Assembly (NCBI RefSeq): GCF_003586305.1
Contig: NZ_QXJI01000001.1
Coordinates: 1,612,001 to 1,676,000, forward strand
DNA: 64,000 nucleotides
Direction of reading: 5' to 3'
Origin: Cognatilysobacter tabacisoli
Lineage (GTDB): Bacteria > Pseudomonadota > Gammaproteobacteria > Xanthomonadales > Xanthomonadaceae
Part shown: piece by piece, positions 1,460-17,850 of the stretch
How the letters are laid out: each line of letters starts with the position of its first letter
Numbering within the stretch: the stretch's first letter is position 1
Position numbers and translations under genes: made by a program
The notes under the pieces: generated by a model
Databases searched by the model: none
Told to the model about the DNA's origin: nothing
What the model saw: only the letters and a program-made list of their open reading frames with translations

Positions 1460-2458
1460 ATGCGCATCGGGCCCCACGACATCACGCCCCGAGTGATCCT
1501 GGCCCCGATGGCCGGGGTCACCGACAAGCCGTTCCGGATGCTGTGCAAGCGGCTCGGTGCCGGGCTGTGCGTGTCGGAAATGACGACCTCGGACCCGCGC
1601 TTCTGGTCGACCGCGAAATCGCGCCACCGCATGGACCACGTCGGCGAGCCGGCGCCGATCAGCGTGCAGATCGCCGGCACCGTGCCCGAGGTGATGGCGC
1701 AGGCCGCCCGCTACAACGTCGACCACGGCGCGCAGATCATCGACATCAACATGGGCTGCCCGGCCAAGAAGGTCTGCAACGCCTGGGCGGGCTCGGCGCT
1801 GATGCGCGACGAGGCGCTGGTCGCGCGCATCCTCGAGGCTGTCGTCGCCGCCGTCGACGTGCCGGTGACGCTGAAGATCCGCACCGGCTGGGCCGCCGAC
1901 CGGAAGAATGCGCTGGCAATCGCGCGCATCGCGCAGGAAGCCGGCATCGCCTCGCTGGCCGTGCACGGCCGCACCCGCGACCAGCAGTACACCGGCGTGG
2001 CCGAGTACGACACGATCGCCGCGGTCAAGGCGGCGCTGTCGATTCCGGTCGTCGCCAACGGCGACATCGATTCGCCCGACAAGGTCGCCGCGGTGCTCGC
2101 GCACACCGGCTGCGACGCGGTGATGGTCGGGCGCGCGGCGCAGGGCCGGCCGTGGATCTTCCGCGAGATCGGCCACTTCCTCGCCACCGGGCAGCGCCTG
2201 CCGCCGCCGACGCTGGACGAGGTCCGCGACGTGCTGCTCGGCCATCTCGACCACCTGCACGACTTCTACGGCGAAGAGTCCGGCGTGCGCATCGCACGCA
2301 AGCACCTGGGCTGGTACGCGAAGGACCGGCCCGAGAACGCCGCGTTCCGCGACGTGGTCAACCGCGCCCAGACCGCCGAGGCCCAGCGCCGCCTGACCCG
2401 CGACTACTTCGATGCACTGGCCGCCGGCGTCGTACCGGACGTCGCCGCAGCCGCCTGA
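1460..2458 (+). CDS. dusB: tRNA-dihydrouridine synthase B
   Basis: A 332-residue flavoenzyme that reduces specific uridines in the tRNA D-loop to dihydrouridine using FMN and NADPH. The TIM-barrel motifs follow DusB closely: LAPMAGVTDKPFR near the N-terminus, DINMGCPAKKVCN with the catalytic cysteine, KIRTGW, VHGRTR, ANGDI and the FMN-phosphate site MVGRAAQGRPWIF. A C-terminal tRNA-binding helical part follows (HDFYG, RIARKHLGWY). I prefer the ATG at 1460 (MRIGPHDI, as in other DusB proteins) to the one at 1451, because a TACAAT hexamer overlaps 1451 and would place the transcript start near 1460. In enterobacteria dusB precedes fis; here it does not. Confidence 0.93.
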   Translation: MRIGPHDITPRVILAPMAGVTDKPFRMLCKRLGAGLCVSEMTTSDPRFWSTAKSRHRMDHVGEPAPISVQIAGTVPEVMAQAARYNVDHGAQIIDINMGCPAKKVCNAWAGSALMRDEALVARILEAVVAAVDVPVTLKIRTGWAADRKNALAIARIAQEAGIASLAVHGRTRDQQYTGVAEYDTIAAVKAALSIPVVANGDIDSPDKVAAVLAHTGCDAVMVGRAAQGRPWIFREIGHFLATGQRLPPPTLDEVRDVLLGHLDHLHDFYGEESGVRIARKHLGWYAKDRPENAAFRDVVNRAQTAEAQRRLTRDYFDALAAGVVPDVAAAA

Positions 2459-2486
2459 TTCCCCGTCCACGCCAGCGAGGCCGGCC

Positions 2487-3320
2487 ATGATTGCCCCGAC
2501 CGAACCGACCGCATCGCCGTACCTGCACGGGTTCTCGCCGACCGAACAGGCGCGGCTGGTCAAGCAGGCGCGGATCGCCGAGTCGACGATCTTCCGCGAC
2601 ATCGACTACACCGGCGCGCGGCGCTTGATCGAGGTCGGCAGCGGCGTCGGCGCGCAGACCGAGATCCTGCTGCGGCGGTTTCCCGACCTGCACGTCGACT
2701 GCATCGACTTCAGCCGCGCGCAGCTCGAGGCCGCGCGCGCGAACCTCGGCGCACGCGCCTGGCTCGACGGCCGCTATGCGCTGCACGAGGCCGACGCGGG
2801 CGATCTGCCGTTCGAGGCGCGGACGTTCGACGCGGCGTTCCTGTGCTGGGTGCTGGAGCACGTGCCGTCGCCGGCGCGCGTGCTCAGCGAGCTGCGCCGC
2901 GTGCTGTCGCCCGGCTCGCCGGTGTACATCACCGAGGTCATGAACGCCTCGTTCCTGCTCGACCCGTACTCGCCGAACGTGTGGCGCTACTGGATGGCGT
3001 TCAACGACTTCCAGATCGACAGCGGCGGCGATCCGTTCGTCGGCGCGAAGCTCGGCAACCTGCTGCTGGCCGGCGGCTTCCGCGACGTCAGCACGCAGGT
3101 CAAGACGTTCCACTTCGACAACGGCGAACCGGCGCGGCGCAAGGCGATGATCGCGTTCTGGGAGGAGCTGCTGCTGTCGGCGGCCGACCAGCTCGTCAGC
3201 GCCGGGAAGGTCACGGCCGAGGTCGTCGACGGCATGCGCCGCGAGTTCCACCAGGTACAGAACGATCCCGACGCCGTCTTCTTCTACGCGTTCGTGCAGG
3301 CGCGCGCGACGGTCTACTGA
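2487..3320 (+). CDS. Class I SAM-dependent methyltransferase
   Basis: A 277-residue soluble protein of the Methyltransf_11/25 type. Motif I (LIEVGSGVGAQTE, residues 48-59) is the glycine-rich SAM loop. An acidic residue that would contact the SAM ribose follows in HVDCIDFS at about 68-75. The FLCWVLEHVPSPARVL segment at about 115-130 is the post-motif region typical of small-molecule methyltransferases. The frame is open further upstream to 2412, inside dusB, but the ATG at 2487 has a GCGAGG ribosome-binding site and starts directly before the conserved fold. It follows dusB by 28 bases on the same strand. The substrate is unknown and the neighbours give no clue. Confidence 0.8.
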   Translation: MIAPTEPTASPYLHGFSPTEQARLVKQARIAESTIFRDIDYTGARRLIEVGSGVGAQTEILLRRFPDLHVDCIDFSRAQLEAARANLGARAWLDGRYALHEADAGDLPFEARTFDAAFLCWVLEHVPSPARVLSELRRVLSPGSPVYITEVMNASFLLDPYSPNVWRYWMAFNDFQIDSGGDPFVGAKLGNLLLAGGFRDVSTQVKTFHFDNGEPARRKAMIAFWEELLLSAADQLVSAGKVTAEVVDGMRREFHQVQNDPDAVFFYAFVQARATVY

Positions 3321-3341: not shown

Positions 3342-4100
3342 TCAGCGGATCGGGAAGTCGAAGTAGCGCTTCGGCTCCGGCTCGGGGTCGAGCGTGTAGT
3401 GCCACCACTCCAGCGGGTAGTTGCGGAAGCCCGCGGCCGCCATCGCCGCGCGCAGGCGCTCGCGGTTGCCGCGCTGCTGCGGCGACACCGCCGGCGAGTC
3501 GGTGTTCGCCCGCGGGTCGAAGAAGTCGTACTCGGTGCCCATGTCCAGCGGCAGGCAGCGCGCGGCTTCGCAACGCAGCAGGGTCAGGTCCAGCGTCGCA
3601 CCGCGGCTGTGGCCCGAAGTCGGCGAGATGTAGTCGCCGAGCAGCTCACGCTTGCTCAGATTCGGGTAGTGCGTGGCCTTGGTGCGCTGGTCGCCCAGGT
3701 CGGCGGCCCAGCGCACGAAATGCTGTACGGCGCGCGCGGGCCGGTAGCAGTCGTACACCCGCAGCCGCAGTCCTTCGGCGCGCAGCGCGGCCTCGGCCTT
3801 GGCCAGCGCGTCGGCGGCAGGCGCCTGCAGGAAGCAGCGGCCGGTCTCGTAGCCGTCGACGCGGCCGCCAGTGAAGTTGTTTGGGCCGGCGTAGCGCATG
3901 TCGACGTCGAGATCGGCGACGCGGGCGCGCACGTCGACCATGCCGGCCGCCTCGGGCGTCTCGGCCGCGGCGATCGGCATCGGACTCCCGCTTCCGCCGC
4001 GCATCGGCGACAGCGCGTGCGCGGCCAGCGCGAAGGCCAGCCACGGCAGCACGTAGTACGCGAATTCGCGGAGGCGGGACGACTTCCTGGTCATGGGCAT
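3342..4100 (-). CDS. VanX/DdpX-type D-alanyl-D-alanine dipeptidase, membrane-anchored or exported
   Basis: A 252-residue zinc dipeptidase of the VanX family (M15D). The zinc and catalytic motifs are intact: SGHSRGATLD supplies the His and Asp ligands, and EWWH near the C-terminus supplies the catalytic Glu and third His ligand. DMRYAGPNNF and YDCYRPARAV are further family signatures. A hydrophobic stretch at about residues 12-30 looks like a signal anchor or uncleaved signal peptide, so it probably works in the periplasm, unlike the cytoplasmic VanX of resistance operons. No vanA/vanH partners are present. Its place beside murein-peptide genes suggests it splits D-Ala-D-Ala released from peptidoglycan. 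Starts at 4100 or 4094 are equally likely; no clear ribosome-binding site is seen. Confidence 0.82.
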   Translation of the reverse strand: MPMTRKSSRLREFAYYVLPWLAFALAAHALSPMRGGSGSPMPIAAAETPEAAGMVDVRARVADLDVDMRYAGPNNFTGGRVDGYETGRCFLQAPAADALAKAEAALRAEGLRLRVYDCYRPARAVQHFVRWAADLGDQRTKATHYPNLSKRELLGDYISPTSGHSRGATLDLTLLRCEAARCLPLDMGTEYDFFDPRANTDSPAVSPQQRGNRERLRAAMAAAGFRNYPLEWWHYTLDPEPEPKRYFDFPIR

Positions 4101-4168
4101 GCGATCGGCGGGCGGGGAGCCGTTCCTGGGCAACGTGCGCATAGTGCAAACCGAATGCGGGGAGCGGT

Positions 4169-4184
4169 CAACTGCCGGCAGTTG
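4169..4184. promoter_or_regulatory. Perfect 16-bp palindrome, candidate operator
   Basis: CAACTGCCGGCAGTTG is its own reverse complement. It lies about 70 bases before the start of the VanX-type gene and after the terminator of the gene upstream of it, a suitable place for an operator. It does not resemble the AT-rich inverted repeat at 9042-9061, so a different regulator would be involved. Confidence 0.35.
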
Positions 4185-4361
4185 CCATGGCCCGTTGGGG
4201 GCCGCCGGGCTGAACGGTACAGCCGCGCGGGCCTGCGGGCGTTGGCGTCCAGGCCGGCGAGCCCGCACGAGCCGGTCAGATCCGAACGGGAGGCTGCTGC
4301 AGGCGTCTGCCTCGGCTTACCGGTTAGCGGCCACGGCTGGCGGCCCGGAGCCGGGCCCCTC

Positions 4362-4393
4362 AAAAAAATGGCGGCCCGGTACGCGGGCCGCCA
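4362..4393 (-). terminator. Rho-independent terminator of the TonB receptor gene
   Basis: On the minus strand, a 9-bp stem GGCGGCCCG/CGGGCCGCC with a short loop is followed directly by seven T residues (an A-run at 4362-4368 on the plus strand). It starts 11 bases after the receptor stop codon. Confidence 0.9.
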
Positions 4394-4403
4394 ACGGGGA
4401 GCG

Positions 4404-7400
4404 TCAGAAATTCCAGCTGACCACGAGCTGCGCGTAGCGCGGCGACTGCCAGCGGGTGCCGGTGCCGAAGGTGGTCCGGTAGACGCCCGGCCCCTTCTCG
4501 TAGCGCTGGCGCACATTGATGACCTCCTGCTCGTTGAGCAGGTTGAAGACCGACAGCCGCGCCTTCAGGTCGATGCCCTCGACCGGCAGGGTCCAGGTGA
4601 CGTTGGCGCCGAGGTTGTAGGTCCACGGCATGCGCCCGAACGCGCCGCGCTCGCTGAACTCGTGGACGCGGTTCTGCCACGGGCCGGAACAGTTCTGCAC
4701 GCAGATCCAGCCGCTGCCGCCGCCGCTGCCCTCGGAGGTGAAGCTGCCGACCGAGAAGTTCTCGTCCGGCCAGGTCACGCCGAACGCGCTGATCGGCGCG
4801 CCGGACTGCGCGACCAGCGTGCTGCCGAACGTCCACATCTCGTTGAGCTTGAAGCTGCCGCGCAGCTTGACCTGGTGCCGGTGGTCGTTGAACAGGTCGC
4901 CGTAGCGCTCGTTGACGGCCGGGTGGTCCCAGTGCTGGACCATGCCGGTGTCGCCGTAGTTGGTGTCGGAGTTCACCGGGCCTTCGTGGTTGCCGTCCAG
5001 CTTCGACCACAGGTACGACGCATTGAAGGCCCACCGGTCGTCCCACGCGCGGTCGATCTGGAACTCCAGCGCCTTGTACGTGCGGCGCGGGTCCTTGTAG
5101 CCGATGATCCGGTTGCTGCCGACGGTGATGTAGCCCTCCTTCGACGTGTCGATGGTGACCCAGCCGTTCTGGGCGCAGCCCATCGCGGTGGTGCCCCACA
5201 GGGTCAGCTCCTCGCCCGGGTTGGCGATCGGGAACAGCGTGGCGTGGCGCACGCCGCACAGCGCGTTGATGCGCACGTCGTCGAGCGCGCCCTCCATCTT
5301 CCGGTAGGTGCCGTTGACGCCCCAGGACCACGCCTGGTTGATCATGCTCTGGAAGCCGAGGATGAACTCGTCCTGGTACACGGCATCGAGGTCGCGGTCC
5401 ACGCTGCTGCGCAGGTCACCGACGCCGATGTTCATGTCGTCATCGACCGGGCCGATCTGCGCGCCGAGGATGGGCTGCCGGTAGCTGGCGCCGGTGACCG
5501 GATTGGTTGCCTGCTGCCATCCGTTCAACGCCCAGTACGTGTACTCGTCGGTCAGGCCGCCGGCGAAGGTGTAGTTGATGTTGTTGGTGACCGGCAGGTA
5601 GTAGCGCCCGGCGTTGCCGAACAGCTTCATGCGCCCGTCGGCGCGCACGTCCCACGAGAAGCCCACGCGCGGCGACACCAGGTCGTCCATCTTGATGAAG
5701 CTGCTGCCGGTGGCGGTCTTGTTCTCGAACGCGTCGACGCGGACGCCGAGGTTCAGGACCAGGCTCGGGGTGACGTTCCACACGTCCTCGACGTACCAGG
5801 CGTTGGCGGTCGTCTCGAACACGCCGCCGTCGGCGCGCCGGCGCCCCATGACGATCGCGTTGACGCCCGCGGGCACCGTCGCGCCGTTGTCGAGCAGGCT
5901 GCCGGGCGCGCGCGAGTACACGGTGTAGCGCGTGCCGTCCGGGCCCGGGTACGAGGTGGTGCGGTCGGTGGTCATCTCCTCGCTGTCGACGCCGAACCGC
6001 AGCAGGTGGTCGCCCAGCGTCCACTCGAAGTCGAGCCGGCCGACCTTGCGTTCGTCGTGGTGGTCGACGACCGAGGTGCCGGTGAACGGATGGCAGCTCA
6101 CCGGCGGCCGGCCCAGTGCCGTGTACGCGGCGTTGTAGCTCGAGTCGATGATCACCTGCGAGCACAGCGTGTCGGCCGGCGAGTAGGTCAGCGCCTTGCT
6201 CTTGTTGATGCCGTACATCGCCTTGGCGGTAAAGCTTTCGCCGAAGCGACCGGTGTACGTGGCCGAACCGCTGGTGCCGCCGCTTTCAGCCGTGCTGCTC
6301 CCGGTGAAGCTGGTCGTGCGGGCGTTGTCCCAGTCGTAGGCGTAGGTCTCGGCGGTGGTCTCGGTCTCGTCGGAGAAGCCCATCACCTCCAGCAGGTGGC
6401 TGTCGGTGATGTTCCAGTCGAGCTTGGCGCCCCAGAACCCGTCGCCGTTCTCCGAGTCGGTCCAGCTGGCGCCGTTGGTGCTGGTGTTGCTGGCGTCGGT
6501 CTCGCGCTGCTCGTACATCGCGAACAGGAACACGCGGTCGCGCAGCAGCGGGCCGGACGCCCAGACATTGCCCTTCATGAAGCTGCGCGAGTCGCGGCTG
6601 GCGCGGTAGTACACCGGCACCGGGTTGCCTGCGGCGTCGGTGTCGGAGAACTGGTGGTCGTCGGCGCTGGACTGCAGCGCGCTGGGCTCGAAGGTGAAGG
6701 TCACGCCGCCGTCGAACTCGTTGCCGCCGCGGCGGGTCACGGCGTTGATCACGCCGCCGGTGCTGCGGCCGAACTCGACCGAATAGCCGCCGGTCTTGAC
6801 CTGGAACTCCTGGAAGAAGTCGAACGGCGCCGCGGAGAAGCTTTGCCGGCGGTAGAAGTCGGTGACGTTGAGGCCGTTGATGAACACCGAGTTCTCGGCC
6901 ACCGACGAGCCGCCGAACGAGATGCCGCCGAACGACGAGTTTCCGCCGATCACGCCCGGGGCCACCAGCGCGACGGACGTCAGGCTCTGGTCCACCGGGA
7001 TGCGCGCGATCTCCTCGCGCGTGATGTTGGTGGCGGTCTCGGTCGACCGCACGTCGACGCGGTTCACCACGCGCGAGCCGATCACCTGCACCGAGTCGAG
7101 GTTGACGACGTCACCGCCGCTGCCGAGGTTGACCGTGGTCGTGCCGCCCAGCGCCACGTTGACCTGCACCGGCGCGCCGACCGGCTGGCCGTCGCGAACC
7201 ACCTGCAGCGTGTAGTCGCCGACCGGCAGCTGGCTGAGCCGGTACGCGCCGTTGGAGCCGACGGTCACCGTGCGGGTGACGCCGGTGGCGGGGTTGCTGA
7301 CCGTGATCTGGTCGCCGGCGCTGGCGCGGCCCGCGACGGCGCCGGTCACGCTCTGCGCGAGCGCCATCGGCGCCACCGTGCCCAGGCACGCACCCAGCGC

Positions 7401-7454
7401 GAGGCACAGCGCCGCTTTCTTCATCCGCTTCGACAACGACCGCCTGGCTTTCAT
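4404..7454 (-). CDS. Oar-type TonB-dependent outer-membrane receptor
   Basis: A 1016-residue outer-membrane protein. A signal peptide ends after about residue 34 (MALAQ). Next comes a carboxypeptidase-regulatory-like Ig domain at about 35-105 (GDQITVSNPATG, GAYRLSQLPVGDY), then a plug domain (ITREEIARIP, FINGLNVTDFYRR, EFGRSTGGVINAVTRRGGNE), then a long barrel ending in WNF. This layout is that of Oar-like receptors, which often import peptides or other large substrates. The ATG at 7454 has a strong ribosome-binding site (GGAGGGGA). The frame is open to 7679, but that part lies inside the upstream gene. It starts only 40 bases after the transglutaminase-fold gene stops, so the two are probably cotranscribed. 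Neighbouring genes suggest murein peptides as substrate; this is inference. Confidence 0.88.
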   Translation of the reverse strand: MKARRSLSKRMKKAALCLALGACLGTVAPMALAQSVTGAVAGRASAGDQITVSNPATGVTRTVTVGSNGAYRLSQLPVGDYTLQVVRDGQPVGAPVQVNVALGGTTTVNLGSGGDVVNLDSVQVIGSRVVNRVDVRSTETATNITREEIARIPVDQSLTSVALVAPGVIGGNSSFGGISFGGSSVAENSVFINGLNVTDFYRRQSFSAAPFDFFQEFQVKTGGYSVEFGRSTGGVINAVTRRGGNEFDGGVTFTFEPSALQSSADDHQFSDTDAAGNPVPVYYRASRDSRSFMKGNVWASGPLLRDRVFLFAMYEQRETDASNTSTNGASWTDSENGDGFWGAKLDWNITDSHLLEVMGFSDETETTAETYAYDWDNARTTSFTGSSTAESGGTSGSATYTGRFGESFTAKAMYGINKSKALTYSPADTLCSQVIIDSSYNAAYTALGRPPVSCHPFTGTSVVDHHDERKVGRLDFEWTLGDHLLRFGVDSEEMTTDRTTSYPGPDGTRYTVYSRAPGSLLDNGATVPAGVNAIVMGRRRADGGVFETTANAWYVEDVWNVTPSLVLNLGVRVDAFENKTATGSSFIKMDDLVSPRVGFSWDVRADGRMKLFGNAGRYYLPVTNNINYTFAGGLTDEYTYWALNGWQQATNPVTGASYRQPILGAQIGPVDDDMNIGVGDLRSSVDRDLDAVYQDEFILGFQSMINQAWSWGVNGTYRKMEGALDDVRINALCGVRHATLFPIANPGEELTLWGTTAMGCAQNGWVTIDTSKEGYITVGSNRIIGYKDPRRTYKALEFQIDRAWDDRWAFNASYLWSKLDGNHEGPVNSDTNYGDTGMVQHWDHPAVNERYGDLFNDHRHQVKLRGSFKLNEMWTFGSTLVAQSGAPISAFGVTWPDENFSVGSFTSEGSGGGSGWICVQNCSGPWQNRVHEFSERGAFGRMPWTYNLGANVTWTLPVEGIDLKARLSVFNLLNEQEVINVRQRYEKGPGVYRTTFGTGTRWQSPRYAQLVVSWNF

Positions 7455-7494
7455 GTCCCCTCCAACGCGTGATGTGGACCGCGAGTCGCCGGCA

Positions 7495-9027
7495 TCAGTG
7501 GCCCGGCGATGGCGGCAGTACCTTGGCCTCGAACGTGTAATCCCACTGGTCGAAGTAGAGGTTCCCTCCCCTCCACTCCGCCTCGCCGCGCTGGGAGTCC
7601 ACGGTCTCGGATCGGAAATGCTGTTTCGGCGGAACCAGCGGCGTTCCGTAGTCGTCATTGAAGGCGATGCGATACGCATCGAGCCCGCCGAAGTAGAACC
7701 ACTCCAGCCCCGGGTCGCGCTCGCCCTCGAACCGGCCGGTGGTGACGTCCATCGGCAGCCAGCCGTACGGGGCGAGGTACATCCAGCCCCAGTCGTGCAG
7801 GTTGTCGTAGTCGCCGTCGGAGAAGACCATCCCCGACTGCCAGCGCGCGGGAATACCGTTGAGCCGCAGCAGCGTCATCAGCAGCAATGTCTGCTGCCCG
7901 CAGTCGCCGTGTCCGGTGGCCAGCACGTAGTGGGGGATGTTGCGGATCGTCGAGTACTCGCGCGCGCCGGCCCACGGGATGCGGTCGACGGCCTCGAACA
8001 GCTTGCGCGCGACGCGGTACGGATTGGATTCGTCGCCGACGACGCGCGCCGAGAACGCGCGGATCTCGTCGCTGAAGACGATGTGCGGCGGTCGTTCGCC
8101 CAGGTGCTCGGCCAGCGCGGCGGTCGGCACGACCGGCACGACGCTGTCGGGATCGATCGCGTGCACCTGCGCGTGGACGGTCAGTTCGTAGTCGATCGCG
8201 AAGCGCGTCGGCTGGCCGGCCACCGCGCGCTGCTCGAGGTAGACGGTCCGCTGGCGGGTGTCCTCGGGCGCGACGACTGCCTGCGCCGGCGTGGTCGCGT
8301 GCAGGCGCAGCCCATCCTGCTGGCCCGGAAGGGCGCGCGGGTACGGGATCCACGCGCGCACGGTCTCGCCGGCGGGGACCGCGTCGGCCTCCACGACGAG
8401 GGACTGCGTGACCCGCACGCGGCGCGGGGCCACGCTGCTCGCGCCGGTGGCGCGCGCGTGGGCGAGCGCCTCGGCGTGGTGCGCGTGCGGGGACTCCATC
8501 GGTCCGCCGCCGCCCGCGGCCGGTCGGGCGCGCCGCGCTGCCGCGTCGGGGCTGAGCAGGAACAGGTTCGAGACTGCGCGGGCGAAGTAGCGGGGCTCGC
8601 CGTCGATGACCAGGTGCTCGAGCTGCCCGGCCCGCGTCCAACGGTCGAATTCGTCGTCGCGCAGGTCCGGCACCTGCGCCCGCAGCCGCTCGCGCGCGGC
8701 CGCCTCGTCGAGCGGGAAGTCCAAGCGGATCCGGCGCATGCGTTCGCGCTCGAAGGCCAGCGCATCGCGGGTCGCGGGGGCCAGCGCGCCGTCGGCGAGC
8801 GCTGCGTCGATGCGGCGGCCGGCGTCGGCAAAGGCGCCGCGATCGACCAGCGACGCGACCGCCGGCAGCGGGTCCTCGACGGCCCGCGTTGGCCGCGCCG
8901 CCATGGCCAGGCACGCGCAGGCCAGCAGCGCGGACACCACGCGCGCCGGCGTCGGCGAAACCTGCTCGATGCTGCCCCTGCTCACGCCGCCGACCGCCCC
9001 TGGCTGACTGTCGCGGCTGTGTAACAT
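7495..9027 (-). CDS. Exported transglutaminase-fold protein (papain-like triad)
   Basis: A 510-residue protein with an N-terminal signal sequence (hydrophobic run at about 29-44, ending MAARPTRA). The last third is a transglutaminase-like domain with the full Cys-His-Asp triad: Cys376 in GHGDCGQQT, His411 in NLHDWGWMY and Asp427 in LPMDVT. Residues 50-170 are helical and of no recognised family; 200-320 look like a beta-rich domain (TQSLVVEADAVPAG, AWIPYPR) often found before such domains. Bacterial members usually cut or transfer amide bonds rather than crosslink proteins. It is the first gene of the minus arm beside murein-peptide enzymes, so action on peptide crosslinks is plausible but unproven. 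A GTG at 8985 would give a shorter, more typical signal peptide. Confidence 0.78.
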   Translation of the reverse strand: MLHSRDSQPGAVGGVSRGSIEQVSPTPARVVSALLACACLAMAARPTRAVEDPLPAVASLVDRGAFADAGRRIDAALADGALAPATRDALAFERERMRRIRLDFPLDEAAARERLRAQVPDLRDDEFDRWTRAGQLEHLVIDGEPRYFARAVSNLFLLSPDAAARRARPAAGGGGPMESPHAHHAEALAHARATGASSVAPRRVRVTQSLVVEADAVPAGETVRAWIPYPRALPGQQDGLRLHATTPAQAVVAPEDTRQRTVYLEQRAVAGQPTRFAIDYELTVHAQVHAIDPDSVVPVVPTAALAEHLGERPPHIVFSDEIRAFSARVVGDESNPYRVARKLFEAVDRIPWAGAREYSTIRNIPHYVLATGHGDCGQQTLLLMTLLRLNGIPARWQSGMVFSDGDYDNLHDWGWMYLAPYGWLPMDVTTGRFEGERDPGLEWFYFGGLDAYRIAFNDDYGTPLVPPKQHFRSETVDSQRGEAEWRGGNLYFDQWDYTFEAKVLPPSPGH

Positions 9028-9041
9028 GGGGATCAGGGCGC

Positions 9042-9084
9042 GTCAATAATTTATTCTTGACTAAAACATCGACTGAAGTATCTA
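9042..9084. promoter_or_regulatory. Divergent promoter region with inverted-repeat operator candidate
   Basis: A strikingly AT-rich island between the divergent arms. Bases 9042-9061 form an inverted repeat with arms GTCAA and TTGAC and a partly symmetrical AAT..ATT core; 16 of 20 positions obey dyad symmetry. The right arm overlaps TTGACT (9057-9062), a good -35 box for the plus arm, with TATCTA at 9079-9084 as possible -10 at 16-bp spacing. On the minus strand the AT-rich core could act as the -10 of the other arm. One protein bound here could control both arms; the RpiR-type regulator encoded at 11772 is the obvious candidate. Confidence 0.55.
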
Positions 9085-9125
9085 TTCCACTTCGACGGGC
9101 GCTGCCCGCGGAAGAAGACGCCCCG

Positions 9126-10598
9126 ATGCCCGTTTGCGTTTCCCCAGCACCCCCGCCGCAGGCCGGTGCCATGGCCCTCCGGCGGGCGTGGATGCTGCCG
9201 CTGCGCGCCACCGCCGTGGTGCTCGCGCTCGCGACGCCGTTCGCGCTCGCAGCCGCGGCGACCGGCCCGTCTGCGAACCCGCCCCACGGGGTCGTCGGCG
9301 TCGAAGACGCCCAGCTCGATCCCCGCTATTGGGTGGCCCGCCATCCGAACCCCGATGCGGCGTACCTCGACCGGCCCGCCATCGACGCGCACAACGCGAC
9401 CCTTCGGGCGACCGACCGCAGCGTCCACGACCTGCAGGCCCTCCCGCGGGTGCTCCCGCGGGAGCAGGTCGCGCAGTGGGTGGGCGCGCTGTCGGCGCCG
9501 CCATCGCGAACGCTCTACGACGTGCAGGGCGCTCCGCTCCCGCCCGCCACGCTCGCGGGCATCGTCGCCAACGCTGCGGTCGCGGCGATCCCGGCCGAGC
9601 GGCCGGCGCGCTACGGGCTCGCCGTGCGGCGCGCCGACTTGCGCACGTTCCCGACCGCGCTGCGGGTGTTCCGCGAGGTCGGCGACACCGACATTGACCG
9701 CTTCCAGGAAAGCACGCTGTTCCCGGGCGACCCGGTGGTGATCGCGCACGAGAGCGCCGACGGCCAGTGGTGGTTCGTCGTCAGCCCGCGCTATGCCGCG
9801 TGGGTGGAGCGCCGCCACATCGCCGAGGGCGACGCCGGGCAGGTGCTCGGCCACACGACGCGGTCGCCGTACCGGATCGTCACCGGCGCGACGGCGCACA
9901 CGGTCTACAACCCCGAGCTGCCGGCCGTGTCGGAACTGCAGCTCGACATGGGGGTGCGGATGCCGCTGCGCACCGACTGGCCCGCCGACCGCGCGGTCCA
10001 CGGGCAGCACCCCTACGCCTCGCACGTCGTCGACCTGCCCACGCGCGACGCCGATGGGCGGCTGCGGTTCGCCCCCGCGCTGCTGCCGCGCCGCGAGGAC
10101 ACCGCGGGCACCCCGCTGGCGCTGACCCCGCGCAACCTCATCGGGCAGTCGTTCAAGTTCCTCGGCGAGCGCTACGGGTGGGGGCACGCGTACAACGGGC
10201 GCGACTGCAGCGGCTTCGTGTCGGAGGTCTATCGCAGCCTCGGCGTCGAGTTGCCGCGCAACACGAGCGACCAGGCGCGCAGTCCGGCGCTGGCCGGGGT
10301 CGTGTTCGGCGAGCGCGACGGACGCGAGGCGCGCGAGGCCGCCGTGCGCGCGCTGCAGGTCGGCGACCTGGTGTACATCCCCGGCCACGTGATGATGGTG
10401 ATCGGGCACGTCGACGGCGCGCCGTACGTCATCCACGACACCACCGGCATCTCCTACCGCGGCGCCGGCGGCGCACTGGTGCGCATGCCGCTGAACCAGG
10501 TCGCTGTCACTCCGCTGCTGCCGCTGATGTTCAACGCGCGCGAGCGCAAGGTCGACCGCATCACCGCCATCCGCCACGTGCGCCACGCCGCGCGCTGA
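9126..10598 (+). CDS. YkfC-like NlpC/P60 murein-peptide endopeptidase
   Basis: A 490-residue exported enzyme. A signal sequence covers about residues 18-45 (LPLRATAVVLALATPFALAAAA). SH3-like domains fill about 160-320 (e.g. DPVVIAHESADGQWWFVVSPRYAAWVERR cut at about 202-230), and an NlpC/P60 cysteine peptidase domain covers 336-460 with Cys361 in GRDCSGFVSEVYR, His421 in IPGHVMM and His437 in VIHDTTG. The order and motifs match YkfC of Bacillus, which cuts the gamma-D-Glu-diamino acid bond of free murein peptides to release L-Ala-D-Glu. The next gene encodes a YkfB-like epimerase, as in the ykf operon. The ATG at 9126 follows a GGAAGAAG ribosome-binding site; the longer open frame overlaps the divergent gene. 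Its signal peptide suggests a periplasmic site. Confidence 0.87.
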   Translation: MPVCVSPAPPPQAGAMALRRAWMLPLRATAVVLALATPFALAAAATGPSANPPHGVVGVEDAQLDPRYWVARHPNPDAAYLDRPAIDAHNATLRATDRSVHDLQALPRVLPREQVAQWVGALSAPPSRTLYDVQGAPLPPATLAGIVANAAVAAIPAERPARYGLAVRRADLRTFPTALRVFREVGDTDIDRFQESTLFPGDPVVIAHESADGQWWFVVSPRYAAWVERRHIAEGDAGQVLGHTTRSPYRIVTGATAHTVYNPELPAVSELQLDMGVRMPLRTDWPADRAVHGQHPYASHVVDLPTRDADGRLRFAPALLPRREDTAGTPLALTPRNLIGQSFKFLGERYGWGHAYNGRDCSGFVSEVYRSLGVELPRNTSDQARSPALAGVVFGERDGREAREAAVRALQVGDLVYIPGHVMMVIGHVDGAPYVIHDTTGISYRGAGGALVRMPLNQVAVTPLLPLMFNARERKVDRITAIRHVRHAAR

Positions 10599-10637
10599 CC
10601 GCACTCCCGCCGACGAACCCGCCGAGCCACCCCCTTC

Positions 10638-11735
10638 ATGAAGATCACCGACATCCGTTTCGGCCTGCTGCGCGTGCCGCTGAAGACGCCTTTCAAGACC
10701 GCGCTGCGCACGGTCGAGGCGGTCGAGGACATTGTCGTTACGGTCCACACCGACACCGGCCACGTCGGCTACGGCGAGGCGCCGGCCACGGCGGTGATCA
10801 CCGGCGACACCCACGGCTCGATCGTGGAAGCCATCGGCCGCTACATCGCGCCGCGGCTGGTCGGCGAGGACATCGCCAACCTCAACCGCATCACCCAGCT
10901 CATACAGGGCGCGCTGGAGCGCAACACCAGCGCGAAGGCGGCGGTCGAGATCGCCGTCTACGACCTGTTCGGCCAGCTCTACGGCGCCCCGCTGTACCGG
11001 CTGCTCGGCGGCGGCGACCCGGTGATCACCACCGACATCACCATCAGCGTCGACTACATCGACAAGATGGTCGCCGACTCGATCAGCGCGGTGGACCGCG
11101 GCTTCGAGTCGCTGAAGATCAAGGTCGGCAAGGACATGGGCGTCGACGTCGAGCGGGTCAAGGCGATCTACGCTGCGGTCGAGGGCCGTGCCCTGCTGCG
11201 CCTCGATGCGAACCAGGGCTGGACGGCGAAGCAGGCCGTGCATGCGATCGGCACGCTCGAGGACGCCGGCGTGCGCCTCGAACTGGTCGAGCAGCCGGTC
11301 AAGGCGCACGACCTGGAGGGCATGAAGTACGTCACCGAGCGGGTCAACACGCCGATCATGGCCGACGAAAGCGTGTTCGGCCCGCGCGAAGTGATCGACC
11401 TGATCCGGATGCGCGCCGCGGACATCATCAACATCAAGCTGATGAAGACTGGCGGCCTGTCCAACGCGATCCGGATTGCCGACATCTCCGCGCTGTACGG
11501 GGTGGAGTGCATGATCGGCTGCATGCTGGAAACGAGCATCTCGGTGGCCGCGGCCGTGCACCTGGCGGTGGCCAAGTCGAACGTGATCACCAAGGTCGAC
11601 CTCGACGGCCCGTCGCTGTGCGCGTTCAACCCGGTCGACGGCGGAGTGCAGTTCAACGAGTCGGAGATCTCGGTGACCGATGCGCCCGGCCTCGGCATCC
11701 GCGAGATCCGCGGGCTCGAACCCTACCGGGCCTGA
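10638..11735 (+). CDS. ykfB: L-Ala-D/L-Glu (dipeptide) epimerase, enolase superfamily
   Basis: A 365-residue cytoplasmic enzyme that interconverts L-Ala-D-Glu and L-Ala-L-Glu so that ordinary peptidases can use murein dipeptides. All enolase-superfamily (MLE subgroup) residues are in place: the KxK pair Lys160/Lys162 in LKIKVGK, metal ligands Asp190 (RLDANQGW), Glu218 (ELVEQP) and Asp243 (MADES), and the opposing Lys267 (INIKLMKTGG). The C-terminal GCMLETSIS loop fits dipeptide epimerases. Numbering and motifs follow B. subtilis YkfB almost residue for residue. It lies 39 bases after the YkfC-like gene and 36 before the regulator gene, so an operon is likely. Other dipeptide specificities exist in this family. 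Confidence 0.88.
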   Translation: MKITDIRFGLLRVPLKTPFKTALRTVEAVEDIVVTVHTDTGHVGYGEAPATAVITGDTHGSIVEAIGRYIAPRLVGEDIANLNRITQLIQGALERNTSAKAAVEIAVYDLFGQLYGAPLYRLLGGGDPVITTDITISVDYIDKMVADSISAVDRGFESLKIKVGKDMGVDVERVKAIYAAVEGRALLRLDANQGWTAKQAVHAIGTLEDAGVRLELVEQPVKAHDLEGMKYVTERVNTPIMADESVFGPREVIDLIRMRAADIINIKLMKTGGLSNAIRIADISALYGVECMIGCMLETSISVAAAVHLAVAKSNVITKVDLDGPSLCAFNPVDGGVQFNESEISVTDAPGLGIREIRGLEPYRA

Positions 11736-11771
11736 CGCGCGGCCCGGAGTTGAATCGACGATGATTCCGCC

Positions 11772-12620
11772 ATGCCACCGCTGCTGAAGATCCGCGCCGA
11801 GCGCGACCGCATGTCGGCGATCGAGCGCCGCATCGCCGACTACCTGCTCGACAACGCGCACCTGCTGCGCGACTACTCGTCTCAGCAGCTCGCCGACGCG
11901 CTCGGGATCAGCCAGTCGAGCGTGGTGAAGTTCAGCCAGAAGCTCGGCTTCAAGGGCTACCCGGACCTCAAGTACACGATCGGGCAGGCCATCGCACGCG
12001 GCACCGGCATTGAGGAGGCGTCCGTGCGCGCCGACGACGCGGGCGACCCGCACGCGGCGCTGGCCGATTCGCTGTGGCAGATGAAGGCGCAGGCCGAGGC
12101 CGCGACGCGGCTGATCAATCCGCCCGCGCGCATCGATGCGATCGCCGCGGCGATCGAAGCCGCCGGCAAGGTCTACATCATCGGGCTCGGCGAAGACGGC
12201 ATCCCGGCGCGCGCGTTCGCCACCCGGCTGTCGATGCTCGGGGTGCTGACGGTCCACTACGTCGATGCGGCGCTGATGCAGGCCGGCGTGTCCAGCGCCG
12301 CGCCGGGCGACGTGCTGCTGGTGTTCTCCGAACACGGGCGCCAGCCGTCGCTGTGCCAGATCGGGCGCGGCGTGCGCGAACTCGGCGGCAGCGTGGTCAC
12401 CGTCACCCGGCACACGCCCAACCCGCTGCGCGCGCACGCCGACCATGCGCTGCTGGTGTCCGCGCACCACGAGTGCCGCTACATCGAGCCGCTGCTGTAC
12501 CAGTCGGCCCTGCAGCACCTGCTCGACGTGCTGTTCGTGCTGCTGTGCGAAGGCAGCGCGGCGCGACGCGACCGGCTCGACCTCAACCTCGATCGCATGC
12601 ACGATCTGCCCGATGGCTGA
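11772..12620 (+). CDS. RpiR/MurR-family transcriptional regulator with an unusual SIS domain
   Basis: A 282-residue regulator. Residues 1-76 form the HTH_6 DNA-binding domain (MSAIERRIADYLLDN, SQQLADALGISQSSVVKFSQKLG). Residues 120-265 form a SIS domain, which in this family normally senses a phosphosugar. Here the usual sugar-phosphate motifs differ: the G-x-G-x-S loop reads GLGEDG at 138-143, and the S-x-S-G-x-T motif reads FSEHGR at 185-190. The ligand may therefore not be a classical sugar phosphate. No sugar-catabolic gene (murQ, nagA, nagK) is nearby; all partners are peptide enzymes or transporters. Likely target is the inverted repeat at 9042-9061, about 2.7 kb upstream in the same operon. 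Confidence 0.85.
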   Translation: MPPLLKIRAERDRMSAIERRIADYLLDNAHLLRDYSSQQLADALGISQSSVVKFSQKLGFKGYPDLKYTIGQAIARGTGIEEASVRADDAGDPHAALADSLWQMKAQAEAATRLINPPARIDAIAAAIEAAGKVYIIGLGEDGIPARAFATRLSMLGVLTVHYVDAALMQAGVSSAAPGDVLLVFSEHGRQPSLCQIGRGVRELGGSVVTVTRHTPNPLRAHADHALLVSAHHECRYIEPLLYQSALQHLLDVLFVLLCEGSAARRDRLDLNLDRMHDLPDG

Positions 12621-12693
12621 TGCGGCCGTGGACGCTGTGATGCCGCACCGCCCGGCGCACGCCCCTTCCTTCCCGTACAGGACCACACCGACG

Positions 12694-13479
12694 ATGCCCC
12701 GACTCCTCGCCGCCACCGTGCGCACCGCGCTCCTCGGCATCGCCCTGGCGGCCACCGGCTGCACCACGGTGGCCGAGCCGGCCGCCTCGACCGACGCGCA
12801 GGCGTGGGCGCAGGCGCAGCAGATGGTCGTCGTCACCACGCCCGGCTGGGACGCGATCGACGGCCAACTTCGCCGGTTCGAACGCACCCCCGCCGGCTGG
12901 CGCGAAGTCGGCCCGGGCGCGCCGATCGTGATCGGCCGCAGCGGCAGCGGATGGGGGCTGGGCCTGCACCCGACGCAGGCGACCGGCCCGCAGAAGCGCG
13001 AAGGCGATGGCCGCGCGCCCGCCGGCGTGTTCGCGATCGGTCCTGCGTTCGGCTACGCGCCGAGCGCCGACACCGCGCTGCCGTACCAGGCGATGGATGC
13101 CGGCGACTACTGCATCGACGTGCCCGATTCGCCGCTGTACAACCGCATCGTCGATACCAAGGACGTCGGCGCCGAAGCGGTCAAGGGATCCACCGAGCCG
13201 ATGCGCCGCGACATCCACCTCGACGGCGACGACGTGTACCGGCTCGGGTTCGTGATCGAGCACAACGCGGGCGGCCGCGCGAACGCCGGCAGCTGCATCT
13301 TCGCCCACCTGTGGCGGGGCCCGTCGCGGCCGACGGCGGGCTGCACCGCGATGGCCGAGCCAGCGATGCGCGAGCTGCTGGCGTGGCTGGGGCCCAACCG
13401 CAAGCCGGTGTTCGTGCTGCTGCCCGAGCCCGAGTACCGACGCGTCCAGGCCGAATGGGGCCTGCCGCCGCTGCCGTGA
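12694..13479 (+). CDS. L,D-transpeptidase-fold (YkuD) lipoprotein
   Basis: A 261-residue predicted lipoprotein: the N-terminus is a short basic start, a hydrophobic run and the lipobox AATGC with Cys23. The YkuD domain follows, with catalytic His205 in IFAHLWRG and Cys217 in PTAGCTAM. This is the variant T-A-G-C form of the usual [S/T]-x-G-C motif, seen in a subgroup of L,D-transpeptidase-like proteins. Such enzymes make or break L,D-bonds at diaminopimelate or anchor proteins to murein. The ATG at 12694 gives an ideal lipoprotein signal; an in-frame ATG at 12640 would bury it. Its place between the regulator and the symporter genes ties it to murein turnover. Whether it works as transpeptidase or carboxypeptidase cannot be told. 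Confidence 0.82.
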   Translation: MPRLLAATVRTALLGIALAATGCTTVAEPAASTDAQAWAQAQQMVVVTTPGWDAIDGQLRRFERTPAGWREVGPGAPIVIGRSGSGWGLGLHPTQATGPQKREGDGRAPAGVFAIGPAFGYAPSADTALPYQAMDAGDYCIDVPDSPLYNRIVDTKDVGAEAVKGSTEPMRRDIHLDGDDVYRLGFVIEHNAGGRANAGSCIFAHLWRGPSRPTAGCTAMAEPAMRELLAWLGPNRKPVFVLLPEPEYRRVQAEWGLPPLP

Positions 13480-13558
13480 CGCGCGCCGGCGCGTCCACGC
13501 TGCCGCGCCGCGCGTAGGTCCACGCCCCTCCTCTTCCGCTTCCTTTGGAATCCGCCAC

Positions 13559-14827
13559 GTGTCGACGACTGCCCGCGTACTGCTCGGCCTCCTGCTCGGT
13601 GCCGCGATCGGCCTGGCGCTCGCGTGGTGGGACGCGTCCACCGCGACAGTCGTCGCCGACGCGGTCCAGCCGATCGGCCGCCTGTGGCTCAACGCGCTGC
13701 AGATGACCGTGGTGCCGCTGGTCGTCGCGCTGGTGATCATCGGCGTCAACGCCGCCCGCGACGCGGCCGCATCGGGGCGCACCGCGCGCCGCGCGATCGC
13801 GACGTTCGTCGTGCTGCTGTCGGCCGGCGCCGCGTTCGCCGCGATCGCCGCACCGCTGCTGCTGTCGCTGCTGCCGCGCCCAGCCGGGCTGGCCGAATCG
13901 CTGCGCGCGGCATCGCCGGAGGCCTCGACGCTGTCGGTGCCGGCGTCGCTGGGCGAGTGGTTCACCGCGATCATCCCGAGCAATGCGATCGCCGCCGCCG
14001 CGCAGAACGCGATGCTGCCGCTGGTGGTGTTTGCGCTGTTCTTCGGCTTCGCGCTCGCGCGGATCGAGCCGGAGCGTCGGCACCGGCTGCTCGAGCTGGT
14101 GCAGGCCGTCGCCGACGTGATGATCGTGATCGTGCGCTGGGTGCTGTGGGCCGCGCCGCTGGGCGTATTCGCGCTGGTTCTCGCGGTGTGTGCGCGCGTT
14201 GGCAGCGGCATGCTCGGCGCGTTCGGCACCTACATCGGCCTGCAGGTGGTGCTGTACGTCGCCGCGACGCTGCTGCTGTACCCCGTGGCGGTACTGGCCG
14301 GCGGCGAGCGCCTGCGCCGCTTCGCCGCGGCGATCCTGCCGGCGCAGACCATCGCCGCCAGCACGCAGTCTTCGCTGGCGTCGCTGCCGGCGATGATCGA
14401 AAGCGCGCGCACCCGGCTCGGCCACCCGGTCGCGACCACGTCGCTGGTGCTGCCGATGGCGGTCACGCTGTTCCGGCTGACCAGCCCGATGCAGTACGTC
14501 GGCGTCGCGGCGTTCATCGCCTGGGCCTACGGCATCGACCTGTCGATCGCGCAGCTCGCCGCGGGCGCCGCGCTCGCAGTGGTGATCAGCATGGGCTCGG
14601 TGGGCCTGCCCGGGCAGGTCAGCTTCATGGCGACGAACATGCCGGTGTCGCAGGCGATGGGCCTGCCGGTCGAGCCGCTCGGCCTGCTGCTGGCGCTAGA
14701 CACGATTCCCGACGTATTCGCCACGGTCGGCAACGTCACCGCCGACCTCACCGCGAACAGCATCGTGTCGCGGCAGGGCGCGGGCGACGCGCGCGACGAG
14801 CCCTCGACGGACACCGCGCTCGACTGA
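13559..14827 (+). CDS. DAACS-family (GltP-like) cation:amino-acid symporter, altered substrate site
   Basis: A 422-residue inner-membrane transporter with eight predicted helices and two re-entrant loops. The serine-rich HP1 loop reads ASTQSSLASLP. The TM8 signature reads DTIPDVFATVGNVTAD: the sodium-site Asn and last Asp are kept, but the Arg that holds the side-chain carboxylate of aspartate or glutamate in GltPh (Arg397) is Ala. The TM7 NMDGT motif is also replaced (FRLTSPMQ). A neutral amino acid or small peptide is thus more likely than glutamate. The start is a GTG at 13559 with GGAA nearby; no better ATG exists. It is the last gene of the plus arm, 79 bases after the L,D-transpeptidase gene. 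Transport of D- or L-alanine from murein breakdown would fit the context. Confidence 0.83.
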   Translation: MSTTARVLLGLLLGAAIGLALAWWDASTATVVADAVQPIGRLWLNALQMTVVPLVVALVIIGVNAARDAAASGRTARRAIATFVVLLSAGAAFAAIAAPLLLSLLPRPAGLAESLRAASPEASTLSVPASLGEWFTAIIPSNAIAAAAQNAMLPLVVFALFFGFALARIEPERRHRLLELVQAVADVMIVIVRWVLWAAPLGVFALVLAVCARVGSGMLGAFGTYIGLQVVLYVAATLLLYPVAVLAGGERLRRFAAAILPAQTIAASTQSSLASLPAMIESARTRLGHPVATTSLVLPMAVTLFRLTSPMQYVGVAAFIAWAYGIDLSIAQLAAGAALAVVISMGSVGLPGQVSFMATNMPVSQAMGLPVEPLGLLLALDTIPDVFATVGNVTADLTANSIVSRQGAGDARDEPSTDTALD

Positions 14828-16474: not shown

Positions 16475-16589
16475 CCGCCGATCGTACCGGCTGCACGCGG
16501 CGGGCCGGCGTCCGGCGCGCCGTGGTCGGGCCGCTTAACCCCATGGCAACATCGGCCCGGCGCAGAATGCACCGGCGCGGCCGAGCCTG

Positions 16590-16628
16590 TATCATGCGCG
16601 GCCATCCTTTTATCCGAATGCAAGGATA
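16590..16628 (+). promoter_or_regulatory. metK -10 candidate and leader hairpin over the ribosome-binding site
   Basis: TATCAT at 16590-16595 is a plausible -10. In the short leader, ATCCTT (16604-16609) is complementary to AAGGAT (16622-16627), which contains the metK Shine-Dalgarno. A second, overlapping dyad TATCC/GGATA spans 16611-16628. The element could act as an RNA hairpin hiding the ribosome-binding site or as a DNA operator. Confidence 0.45.
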
Positions 16629-16635
16629 TAGCCCG

Positions 16636-17850
16636 ATGTCGAGCTACCTGTTCACCTCCGAATCCGTCTCCGAAGGCCATCCGGACAAGATCGCCGACCA
16701 GATCTCCGATGCCGTCCTCGACGCGATCCTCGCGCAGGACAAGCGCGCCCGCGTGGCGTGCGAGACGATGGTGAAGACCGGCGCGGCGATCGTCGCCGGC
16801 GAGGTCACCACCAACGCCTGGGTCGACATCGAGTCGCTCGCGCGCAAGGTGATCAACGACATCGGCTACAACAACTCCGAGGTGGGCTTCGACGGCCACA
16901 CCTGCGCGATCATCAACATGCTCGGCAAGCAGTCGCCCGACATCAACCAGGGCGTCGACCGCAAGAAGCCGGAAGAACAGGGCGCGGGCGACCAGGGCCT
17001 GATGTTCGGCTACGCCTGCAACGAGGCCCCGGAGTACATGCCGGCGCCGCTGTACTACTCGCACCGCCTGGTCGAGCAGCAGGCCAAGGTCCGCAAGAGC
17101 GGCAAGCTCAAGTGGCTGCGTCCGGACGCGAAGTCGCAGGTCACCCTGCGCTACGACGGCAACAAGATCCTCGGCCTCGACGCCGTCGTGTTGTCGACCC
17201 AGCACGATCCGGACATCAAGCAGAAGGACCTGATCGAGGCCGTGCGCGCCGAGATCCTGGTGCCGGTGCTGCCGAAGAAGTGGCTGGAAGCGCTGTCGAA
17301 GAACAAGGTGCACATCAACCCGACCGGCAAGTTCGTGATCGGCGGTCCGGTGGGCGACTGCGGCCTGACCGGGCGCAAGATCATCGTCGACAGCTACGGC
17401 GGCATGGCCCGCCACGGCGGCGGCGCGTTCTCCGGCAAGGACCCGTCGAAGGTCGACCGCTCCGCGGCGTACGCGGCGCGCTATGTCGCCAAGAACATCG
17501 TCGCCGCCGGGCTGGCCGACAAGTGCGAGGTGCAGGTCTCGTACGCGATCGGCGTGGCCGACCCGACCTCGATCTCGGTCACCACGTTCGGCACCGGCCA
17601 CATCAGCGACGACAAGATCGAGAAGCTGATCCGCAAGCACTTCGACCTGCGCCCGTACGGCATCACCCGGATGCTCGACCTGGAGCACCCGATCTACCAG
17701 CCGACCGCCAGCTACGGCCACTTCGGCCGCAAGCCGAAGGAAATCAGCTACACCGACGGCGCCGGCAAGAAGCACAAGGCGACGGCCTTCTCGTGGGAGA
17801 AGACCGACCGCGCCGAGGCGCTACGCAAGGACGCCGGGCTGAAGAAGTAA
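16636..17850 (+). CDS. metK: S-adenosylmethionine synthase
   Basis: A 404-residue cytoplasmic enzyme that makes S-adenosylmethionine from methionine and ATP. Signatures are [17 protein letters not shown] near the N-terminus (ATP and metal binding), [12 protein letters not shown] (the first PROSITE-type motif) and [16 protein letters not shown] (phosphate-binding loop). Length and motif order are normal. The start at 16636 has the ribosome-binding site AAGGA nine bases upstream; longer frames lack homology. A T-tailed terminator follows at 17891. It sits ahead of ahcY and metF, so most of the methyl cycle is in 6 kb, though each gene has its own control region. The leader hairpin may provide regulation. 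Confidence 0.97.

Follow-up and report, generated by a model that had tools for sequence, protein, structure and literature searches.

A conserved TonB receptor locus with a proposed role in murein-peptide utilisation in Cognatilysobacter tabacisoli and its relatives

Murein peptides are abundant wherever bacteria lyse. In enterobacteria they are recycled by AmpG, Opp/MppA, YcjG and MpaA and are handled in the cytoplasm after import across the inner membrane; to our knowledge, no TonB receptor takes part. The carbohydrate-utilisation (CUT) loci of Xanthomonas, the subject of PMC1790865, combine a TonB receptor with enzymes, an inner-membrane carrier and a regulator. As described in PMC2954226, the YkfC subfamily of NlpC/P60 enzymes is specific for a free N-terminal L-Ala, its defining residues include Asp237, Ser239, Asp256 and, in the SH3b domain, Tyr118, and the ykfB-ykfC pair also occurs in Acidobacteria and Bacteroidetes. 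Here we describe an eight-gene locus at positions 3342-14827 of a 64,000-nucleotide stretch of Cognatilysobacter tabacisoli DNA (contig NZ_QXJI01000001.1; the whole stretch is called the window), built around an Oar-type TonB receptor and a YkfB-like epimerase. It is a real, conserved unit with a well-founded though inferred function: with a probability of roughly 60%, we read it as a TonB-dependent unit for the use of murein peptides, analogous for peptides to what a CUT locus is for carbohydrates. The locus suggests an undescribed way to feed on or salvage cell-wall fragments.

Open reading frame (ORF) calls and Pfam scans of the window recovered all eight genes, with the folds and the two divergent arms that a first-pass annotation, made from the letters alone, had assigned to them:

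3342..4268, minus strand: M15-family D-Ala-D-Ala dipeptidase (VanX-like), predicted periplasmic, third gene of the left arm (PF01427; 1r44; hydrophobic N-terminus by eye)
4404..7454, minus strand: Oar-type TonB-dependent receptor, allele type T0 (PF25183, PF13620; signal peptide, CarboxypepD_reg, plug, barrel)
7495..9027, minus strand: secreted transglutaminase-fold protein, probable cysteine peptidase (PF01841; start probably at about 8958)
9042..9061, no strand: operator-like element GTCAATAATTTATTCTTGAC between the divergent arms, tracking RpiR
9126..10598, plus strand: secreted SH3b-NlpC/P60 endopeptidase, YkfC-like (PF12913, PF00877; start 9126 or 9171 uncertain)
10638..11735, plus strand: predicted cytoplasmic L-Ala-D/L-Glu epimerase, YkfB-like (1jpm/1tkk; invariant catalytic residues)
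11772..12620, plus strand: RpiR/MurR-type transcription regulator, HTH_6 and SIS (PF01418, PF01380)
12694..13479, plus strand: lipoprotein of YkuD/L,D-transpeptidase fold, probably a periplasmic hydrolase or transpeptidase of murein peptides (PF03734 marginal)
13559..14827, plus strand: DAACS (sodium:dicarboxylate/glutamate) symporter (PF00375, 2.1e-77)

The left arm runs from the transglutaminase-fold protein through the receptor to the dipeptidase, and the right arm from the endopeptidase through YkfB, RpiR and the YkuD-fold lipoprotein to the symporter. Gaps inside each arm are about 36 to 135 bases (that at the dipeptidase is larger if its later start is used), and each arm may consequently be read as one operon. 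Judged by eye, the endopeptidase, the dipeptidase and the transglutaminase-fold and YkuD-fold proteins carry signal sequences and are extracytoplasmic, and YkfB has no such sequence.

YkfB was searched for in 198 genomes of the family, representing 54 genera, and matches were obtained in 129 genomes and 36 genera, five of them (1.5e-6 to 3.2e-26) too weak for orthologues. A first set of 80 family loci, up to 20 kb each, was taken from the YkfB genomes minus the weak matches, and a named set consisted of the best 80 loci among the matches listed in a scan of public genomes. In the first set, YkfC was found at 78 loci, the YkuD protein and RpiR at 64 each, the Oar receptor at 61 (including one 25%-identity match elsewhere), the transglutaminase-fold protein at 57, the DAACS symporter at 39 and the dipeptidase at 30; 28 of 30 genus codes had at least one receptor-bearing locus. 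The named set gave YkfC 79, RpiR 76, Oar 66, transglutaminase-fold protein 62 and YkuD protein 59, the Oar and RpiR counts including a few 25-39% matches from alteromonad-type loci. Removal of duplicates left 149 of 161 loci, the window included, and with matches above 45% identity within 11 kb these held YkfC in 140 cases, RpiR in 123, a DAACS symporter or permease in 117, the YkuD protein in 114, Oar in 111 and the transglutaminase-fold protein in 109.

Such a comparison of YkfB neighbourhoods was what the first-pass annotation had staked its proposal on, and enzymes and receptor do co-occur across the family: among the 143 unique loci with enough upstream sequence, Oar was in place in 111, only another TonB receptor family, also seen in alteromonad-type loci, in 13, and 19 were scored as having none. 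The last group includes L101, whose Oar lies just under the filter, and three alteromonad loci (L161, L184 and L185) in which a long outer-membrane-type protein directly adjoins YkfC; two of these three proteins were scanned, and both carry CarboxypepD_reg, one also receptor barrel domains. The 45% filter dropped the genuine Oar loci L070 and L101; at 43% L070 is recovered and L101 stays scored as none. Among the named loci are those of Lysobacter, Luteimonas, Pseudoxanthomonas, Stenotrophomonas, Xanthomonas, Rhodanobacter, Dyella and Luteibacter; in a FastTree tree of the named loci the nearest named relative is Vulcaniibacterium tengchongense. Rheinheimera, Arsukibacterium, Lacimicrobium and Pseudidiomarina also belong to the named set but have a reduced or altered neighbourhood. 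Across the class, only 3 of 274 sampled genomes matched at E<=1e-80, all of the same family and one of them the genome of the window itself; given this scarcity, the alteromonad loci are patchy and were perhaps acquired.

Several observations on individual loci may be added. In Rheinheimera and its kin, the outer-membrane protein beside YkfC comes from two families (L182, L186 and L188 versus L184 and L185). In R. maricola and the metagenome-assembled genome (MAG) HGW-15, the Plug-type protein is 71-73% identical to a Lysobacteraceae-family one, and in Arsukibacterium 53%, which suggests a transfer. One genome, G056, has two YkfB loci about 22 kb apart: L047 (G056:C4:28200-48100) carries the second TonB receptor family, a serine hydrolase and an amidase, and no YkfC was found in it; L102 (G056:C4:5800-25700) has Oar, the transglutaminase-fold protein and YkfC and no RpiR. 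Locus L120 of Lysobacter ruishenii is arranged like L047. The YkfB match is split in two pieces in L100 (G080:C7) and in G191:C51; some copies of the locus are thus decaying or mis-assembled.

The receptor itself has the Oar-type build of a CarboxypepD_reg extension (PF13620, 37.3 bits), a plug and a barrel, as seen in the Pfam matches (PF25183, 94.5 bits), the AlphaFold model and the fold search. Its start, MKARRSL, was picked from the signal peptide and homologues. The model has a mean predicted local distance difference test score (pLDDT) of 85, and all 50 PDB matches listed are TonB-type receptors, the best being FusA (4.3e-39).

The window receptor was then used as a query against 74 genomes without a YkfB orthologue (69 with no match and the five with weak ones) and 56 of the 124 YkfB genomes, drawn from those of the fetched loci. 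A full-length receptor of at least 47% identity and at least 833 bits was present in 41 of the 56, the window's own genome included, and by coordinates it adjoins YkfB in 40 of these 41. None of the 74 genomes without a YkfB orthologue held a receptor of the locus type: leaving aside two short fragments of about 40 residues (45-46% identity), the best long match had 40% identity and the top score was 556 bits. Since the next Oar-like genes in YkfB genomes reach at most 594 bits, the locus receptor clade stands apart from the more distant Oar-like genes, which are widespread with and without YkfB. In the one exception, G003, the locus-type receptor is on contig C21 and YkfB on C1, where the YkfB locus has the transglutaminase-fold protein and no Oar; a relocation is possible.

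The arms also share a putative control site. Element GTCAATAATTTATTCTTGAC (9042-9061) consists of a core dyad, AATAANTTATT, flanked by TTGAC boxes facing both ways, the two boxes being our reading of the aligned inter-arm regions. Its core AATAATTTAT occurs, in either direction, in 115 of 120 regions between the transglutaminase gene and the right arm (duplicates included), and the full element is found once in the window's genome at up to 3 mismatches. A dyad with at most 1 mismatch precedes the right arm in 122 of the 123 unique loci whose YkfB is followed by an RpiR on the same strand; shuffling the bases of the regions produced it in 1 case of 2,960. Among the 25 loci scored without a same-strand RpiR (L089, in which no YkfC was found, is outside this scoring), the dyad is absent from 15, all of the family, and present in 10: seven alteromonad-type loci, two at contig ends (L166, L187) and one locus of the family. 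Six of the seven have an RpiR match on the other strand, and one is an unclassified gammaproteobacterial MAG. The dyad thus occurs in 1 of the 16 family loci that are untruncated and have no RpiR. As the loci are related, this tracking is a footprint and not a test on independent samples; from it we infer that RpiR binds the element and controls both arms, which appear to be co-regulated. Just left of the element, a further conserved stretch, TGTGTAACA (9018-9028), covers the first ATG in the ORF of the transglutaminase-fold protein. It is perhaps the -10 box of the left arm, in which case the start of that protein would shift to about 8958, where a GTG precedes the signal peptide and is probably the true start. 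A sigma-70 scan gave one 9/12 match on the plus strand and none of the expected kind.

The enzymes can be named with differing firmness, and the firmest of the names, judged from the sequence, is YkfB. Its best PDB match is the Bacillus subtilis L-Ala-D/L-Glu epimerase (1jpm/1tkk; E 5.8e-100, residues 1-354), and Arg24, Lys160, Lys162, Asp190, Glu218, Asp243, Lys267, Asp321 and Asp323 are invariant in 22 alignment rows; these we take to be the lysines, metal ligands and DxD motif of the enolase superfamily. It scores below the cut-off of the NCBIfam equivalog NF041118 (252.5 versus 500 bits), by name a Thermotoga-type model. A dipeptide epimerase annotation also appears among the 115 genes putatively tied to bean specificity in Xanthomonas (Table 3 of PMC6090828).

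The NlpC/P60 protein (ORF 8889-10598, plus strand, likely start 9126 or 9171) joins SH3_6 and NlpC/P60 domains, and its Cys347, His407, His423 and Asp346 are invariant in 19 rows (alignment numbering), Ser348 being present in at least 90%. It thus has the Cys-His-His residues of YkfC catalysis and the equivalents of Asp237 and Ser239, the gamma-D-Glu residues. The name YkfC-like, given in the first pass, holds for fold and catalytic residues but not for Asp256 of the subfamily, whose place is taken by an asparagine. The dipeptidase is an M15 member (PF01427, 160.6 bits, 5.5e-47; 1r44, E 2e-45) in which the motifs SxHSRG...D and EWWHY, together with the arginine of YRP, align with 1r44, residues that presumably have their usual roles; it misses the NCBIfam dipept_VanX equivalog cut-off (181.4 versus 320 bits), and the VanX label stands at family level. 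So does the L,D-transpeptidase label of the lipoprotein: PF03734 scores 22.1 bits, just short of the 23.4 gathering cut-off, but His190, His205 and Cys217 (TAGCTAM) are invariant in 21 rows, and because this His and Cys are conserved a divergent YkuD fold is likely. The transglutaminase-core protein matches PF01841 at 57.7 bits and has invariant Cys352, His387 and Asp403 (56 rows, alignment numbering); the best PDB match of its model (pLDDT 91) is 3isr, a putative cysteine protease (1.9e-14), pseudomurein endoisopeptidase coming much further down the list (5.6e-3). The symporter belongs to DAACS, an amino-acid/dicarboxylate carrier family (PF00375, 261.2 bits), and in 36 of the 149 unique loci an amino-acid permease (PF13520; one representative scanned) stands mostly in its position. 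RpiR matches PF01418 and SIS (PF01380).

Relatives add further genes to the locus, whose family names are based on one to three scanned representatives each: a serine hydrolase of beta-lactamase fold (PF00144) in 93 of the 149 unique loci, diaminopimelate decarboxylase in 41, DUF819 in 37 and an AmpD-like amidase in 21. The decarboxylase representative passes the lysA equivalog cut-off (451.6 versus 297.9 bits), the serine hydrolase has AmpH as best NCBIfam match below the cut-off (81.5 versus 266), and the amidase AmpD, likewise below it (106.5 versus 143). All four are absent from the window locus, so that "complete-looking", as it was first described, is generous beside many relatives. The amidase is associated with the second receptor family, being present in 13 of the 22 loci that have this receptor and in 8 of the 127 that do not (Fisher p 3.6e-8, kinship ignored), and Oar may serve for free stem peptides and the second receptor for sugar-bearing muropeptides that require an amidase. 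That DUF819 is the general dipeptide importer is not borne out as a rule: it is in 37 of the 149 loci, and 37 of the 38 genomes without a locus copy have a DUF819 elsewhere. The window's genome has such a gene at G000:C1:1441915-1443099, far from the locus. Off-locus DUF819 genes mostly score 338-459 bits on PF05684 and the locus-borne representative of relatives 226.7, and by these scores the former look like another subtype.

From these results, a course of events may be proposed. Murein stem peptides or muropeptides in soluble form would be imported through the outer membrane by the Oar-type receptor. Once periplasmic, they would meet the secreted NlpC/P60 enzyme, which would cut gamma-D-Glu from the diamino acid, and the M15 dipeptidase, which would split D-Ala-D-Ala, while the YkuD-fold and transglutaminase-fold proteins may trim cross-linked or tetrapeptide stems. 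The products would cross the inner membrane by the DAACS carrier, or in relatives by the amino-acid permease or DUF819 protein, after which YkfB would convert L-Ala-D-Glu to L-Ala-L-Glu in the cytoplasm, and in many relatives the locus-borne LysA would turn diaminopimelate into lysine. RpiR, on one operator between divergent promoters, would control both arms.

The outer-membrane-to-cytoplasm pathway for peptidoglycan fragments put forward in the first pass is strongly supported as a unit by the synteny, by a receptor clade seen only in YkfB genomes, by the one shared operator-like site and by additional genes in relatives' loci, of which diaminopimelate decarboxylase and the AmpD-like amidase suit murein stems; taken as a whole, we regard the first-pass interpretation as partly supported. 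A number of points weigh against it. In 15 of the 143 loci, not all of them scanned for receptor domains, no TonB receptor was found beside YkfB, so the enzymes of the locus can stand without one, although in three of the 15 (L097, L127 and L159) a TonB receptor lies at a distance of 6 to 8 kb. The loci are mutually related, and their counts are not independent. In the NlpC/P60 enzyme, Asn365 is invariant (19/19) where the YkfC-defining Asp256 is expected, an equivalence set by spacing from the catalytic Cys, with the adjacent Arg retained; it is for this reason that we write YkfC-like and not YkfC. The distribution of DUF819 does not explain L-Ala-D-Glu import. The complete family locus L102 has the dyad and no RpiR beside it. 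Phosphosugars are the usual effectors of RpiR/SIS regulators, and the locus showed no sugar enzyme.

The same machinery might instead salvage the wall that the cell itself sheds, the receptor recapturing fragments lost through the outer membrane. We consider this unlikely: YkfB, like the AmpD- and AmpH-like proteins of relatives, is an enzyme of recycling type, and Stenotrophomonas and Dyella, which carry the locus, are not known as predators, but products of the cell's own turnover are already periplasmic and would need no outer-membrane receptor, and a second LysA borne by 41 of the 149 loci would fit use as food better. It is improbable that the receptor takes up some other ligand (general oligopeptides, protein or a metal chelate) and merely sits beside murein enzymes. 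The wide spread of distant Oar-like genes and the strong variation of the receptor beside constant enzymes would agree with such a ligand, whereas the absence of the locus clade from 74 of 74 genomes lacking YkfB, the place of the receptor in an operon with the enzymes and with a common operator-like site, and its substitution by a second receptor family in 13 loci speak against it. A cluster that remodels the envelope, or senses wall damage by beta-lactamase-type signalling with the receptor as sensor or adhesin, is very improbable. YkuD-fold, M15 and AmpH-like proteins can edit murein and RpiR hints at ligand sensing, yet an operon that combines cytoplasmic YkfB with a carrier for amino acids points to catabolism, and both plug and barrel of the receptor model are ordinary, with no transducer-type domain among the Pfam matches. 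Murein-peptide utilisation is our preferred reading.

The new and most surprising part of the locus is a dimorphism of the receptor. At 61 named loci, the window included, single-linkage clustering with a cut at 56% identity gave two types of Oar receptor, in 31 and 30 loci, which are whole-gene alleles about 48% identical; the window has type T0. On the receptor tree a single change separates the types; on a tree of YkfB, YkfC and RpiR (both FastTree) the type switches 9 times, and at least 8 of these switches are forced by starred branches; 3 of 64 receptor rows, with no usable YkfC or RpiR, were left out of the named-locus tree. By these trees, at least 8 exchanges of the alleles have occurred at one fixed position, including exchanges between strains of Stenotrophomonas maltophilia. 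The identity between receptors follows that of the neighbouring genes only loosely, the receptor varying strongly while the enzymes stay alike. A mosaic origin was rejected, as each of six gene segments separates the types with one change and no segment exchange between types was seen among them. In S. maltophilia PC315 and SJTL3, 500-base windows of the receptor gene are 50-68% identical and the other locus genes 83-97%, and identity drops again to 58-67% past the dipeptidase, outside the locus; at the protein level the receptors are 48% and YkfB 99.5% identical. SJTL3 and MDMC339, of one type, share 91-97% across the receptor, whereas Stenotrophomonas RAC2, also of SJTL3's type, is lower there too (59-77%), so that the gene varies within a type as well.

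Only 15 positions are fixed by type (90% in each), all of them barrel residues between 586 and 966. Of seven accessory genes set against receptor type, none can reach significance given 8 independent switches; DUF819 goes with type T1 (18 of 30 versus 2 of 31), in the same direction in every differing pair, but follows relatedness. Tentatively, and at somewhat short of even odds, we see here two old alleles swapped as single-gene cassettes beside constant enzymes, a balanced polymorphism driven most likely by phage or bacteriocin or by two ligand chemotypes. As the enzymes do not change with type in the PC315/SJTL3 pair, escape from phage or bacteriocin is weakly favoured over a change of ligand. 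The dimorphism is a natural experiment, offering close relatives whose loci are distinguished chiefly by a single receptor gene.

The genes flanking the locus appear unrelated: Dus (1451-2458), a methyltransferase (2412-3320) and SAM synthetase (16522-17850). Elsewhere in the window, ARAGORN calls a tRNA-Glu(ctc) at 50598-50689, which at 92 bases is unusually long for tRNA-Glu and possibly a false call.

In agreement with the first-pass annotation, no description of a TonB-dependent murein-peptide system or of an active outer-membrane importer of such peptides was found in the open-licence literature, most subscription journals lying outside that scope. If our reading is true, it assigns a ligand class to one branch of the Oar receptor family, explains by what means Lysobacter-type bacteria could benefit when they lyse their neighbours, and bears on beta-lactamase induction, which PMC6448482 ties to peptidoglycan recycling in Stenotrophomonas among others.

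Enterobacterial recycling shares with the locus the L-Ala-D/L-Glu epimerase step. Among described systems, the Bacillus ykf genes (PMC2954226) resemble it in that YkfC adjoins YkfB and that, in B. cereus, YkfC has a signal peptide and YkfB has none; they differ in belonging to a Gram-positive host, with neighbouring dipeptide transport genes of ATP-binding-cassette type and no outer-membrane step, and Asp256 of the Bacillus YkfC is Asn in the locus enzyme. The N-acetylglucosamine TonB clusters of Caulobacter, which take part in peptidoglycan recycling, likewise deal with a murein building block by means of a TonB receptor, a carrier in the inner membrane and cytoplasmic enzymes, but they handle a sugar, take it up by a phosphotransferase system and have GntR-type regulators, and the term epimerase does not occur in the text on them (PMC13046382). 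As in the CUT loci of Xanthomonas, the TonB receptor here stands in one cluster with enzymes of degradation, a local regulator and a carrier for the inner membrane, a linkage that recurs across species; the proposed co-regulation of receptor and enzymes would be a further resemblance. There the substrate is plant carbohydrate, here a murein peptide is proposed, with a receptor of Oar type, and the main text of PMC1790865 on CUT loci does not contain the word peptidoglycan. The locus would be a new variant among TonB utilisation loci.

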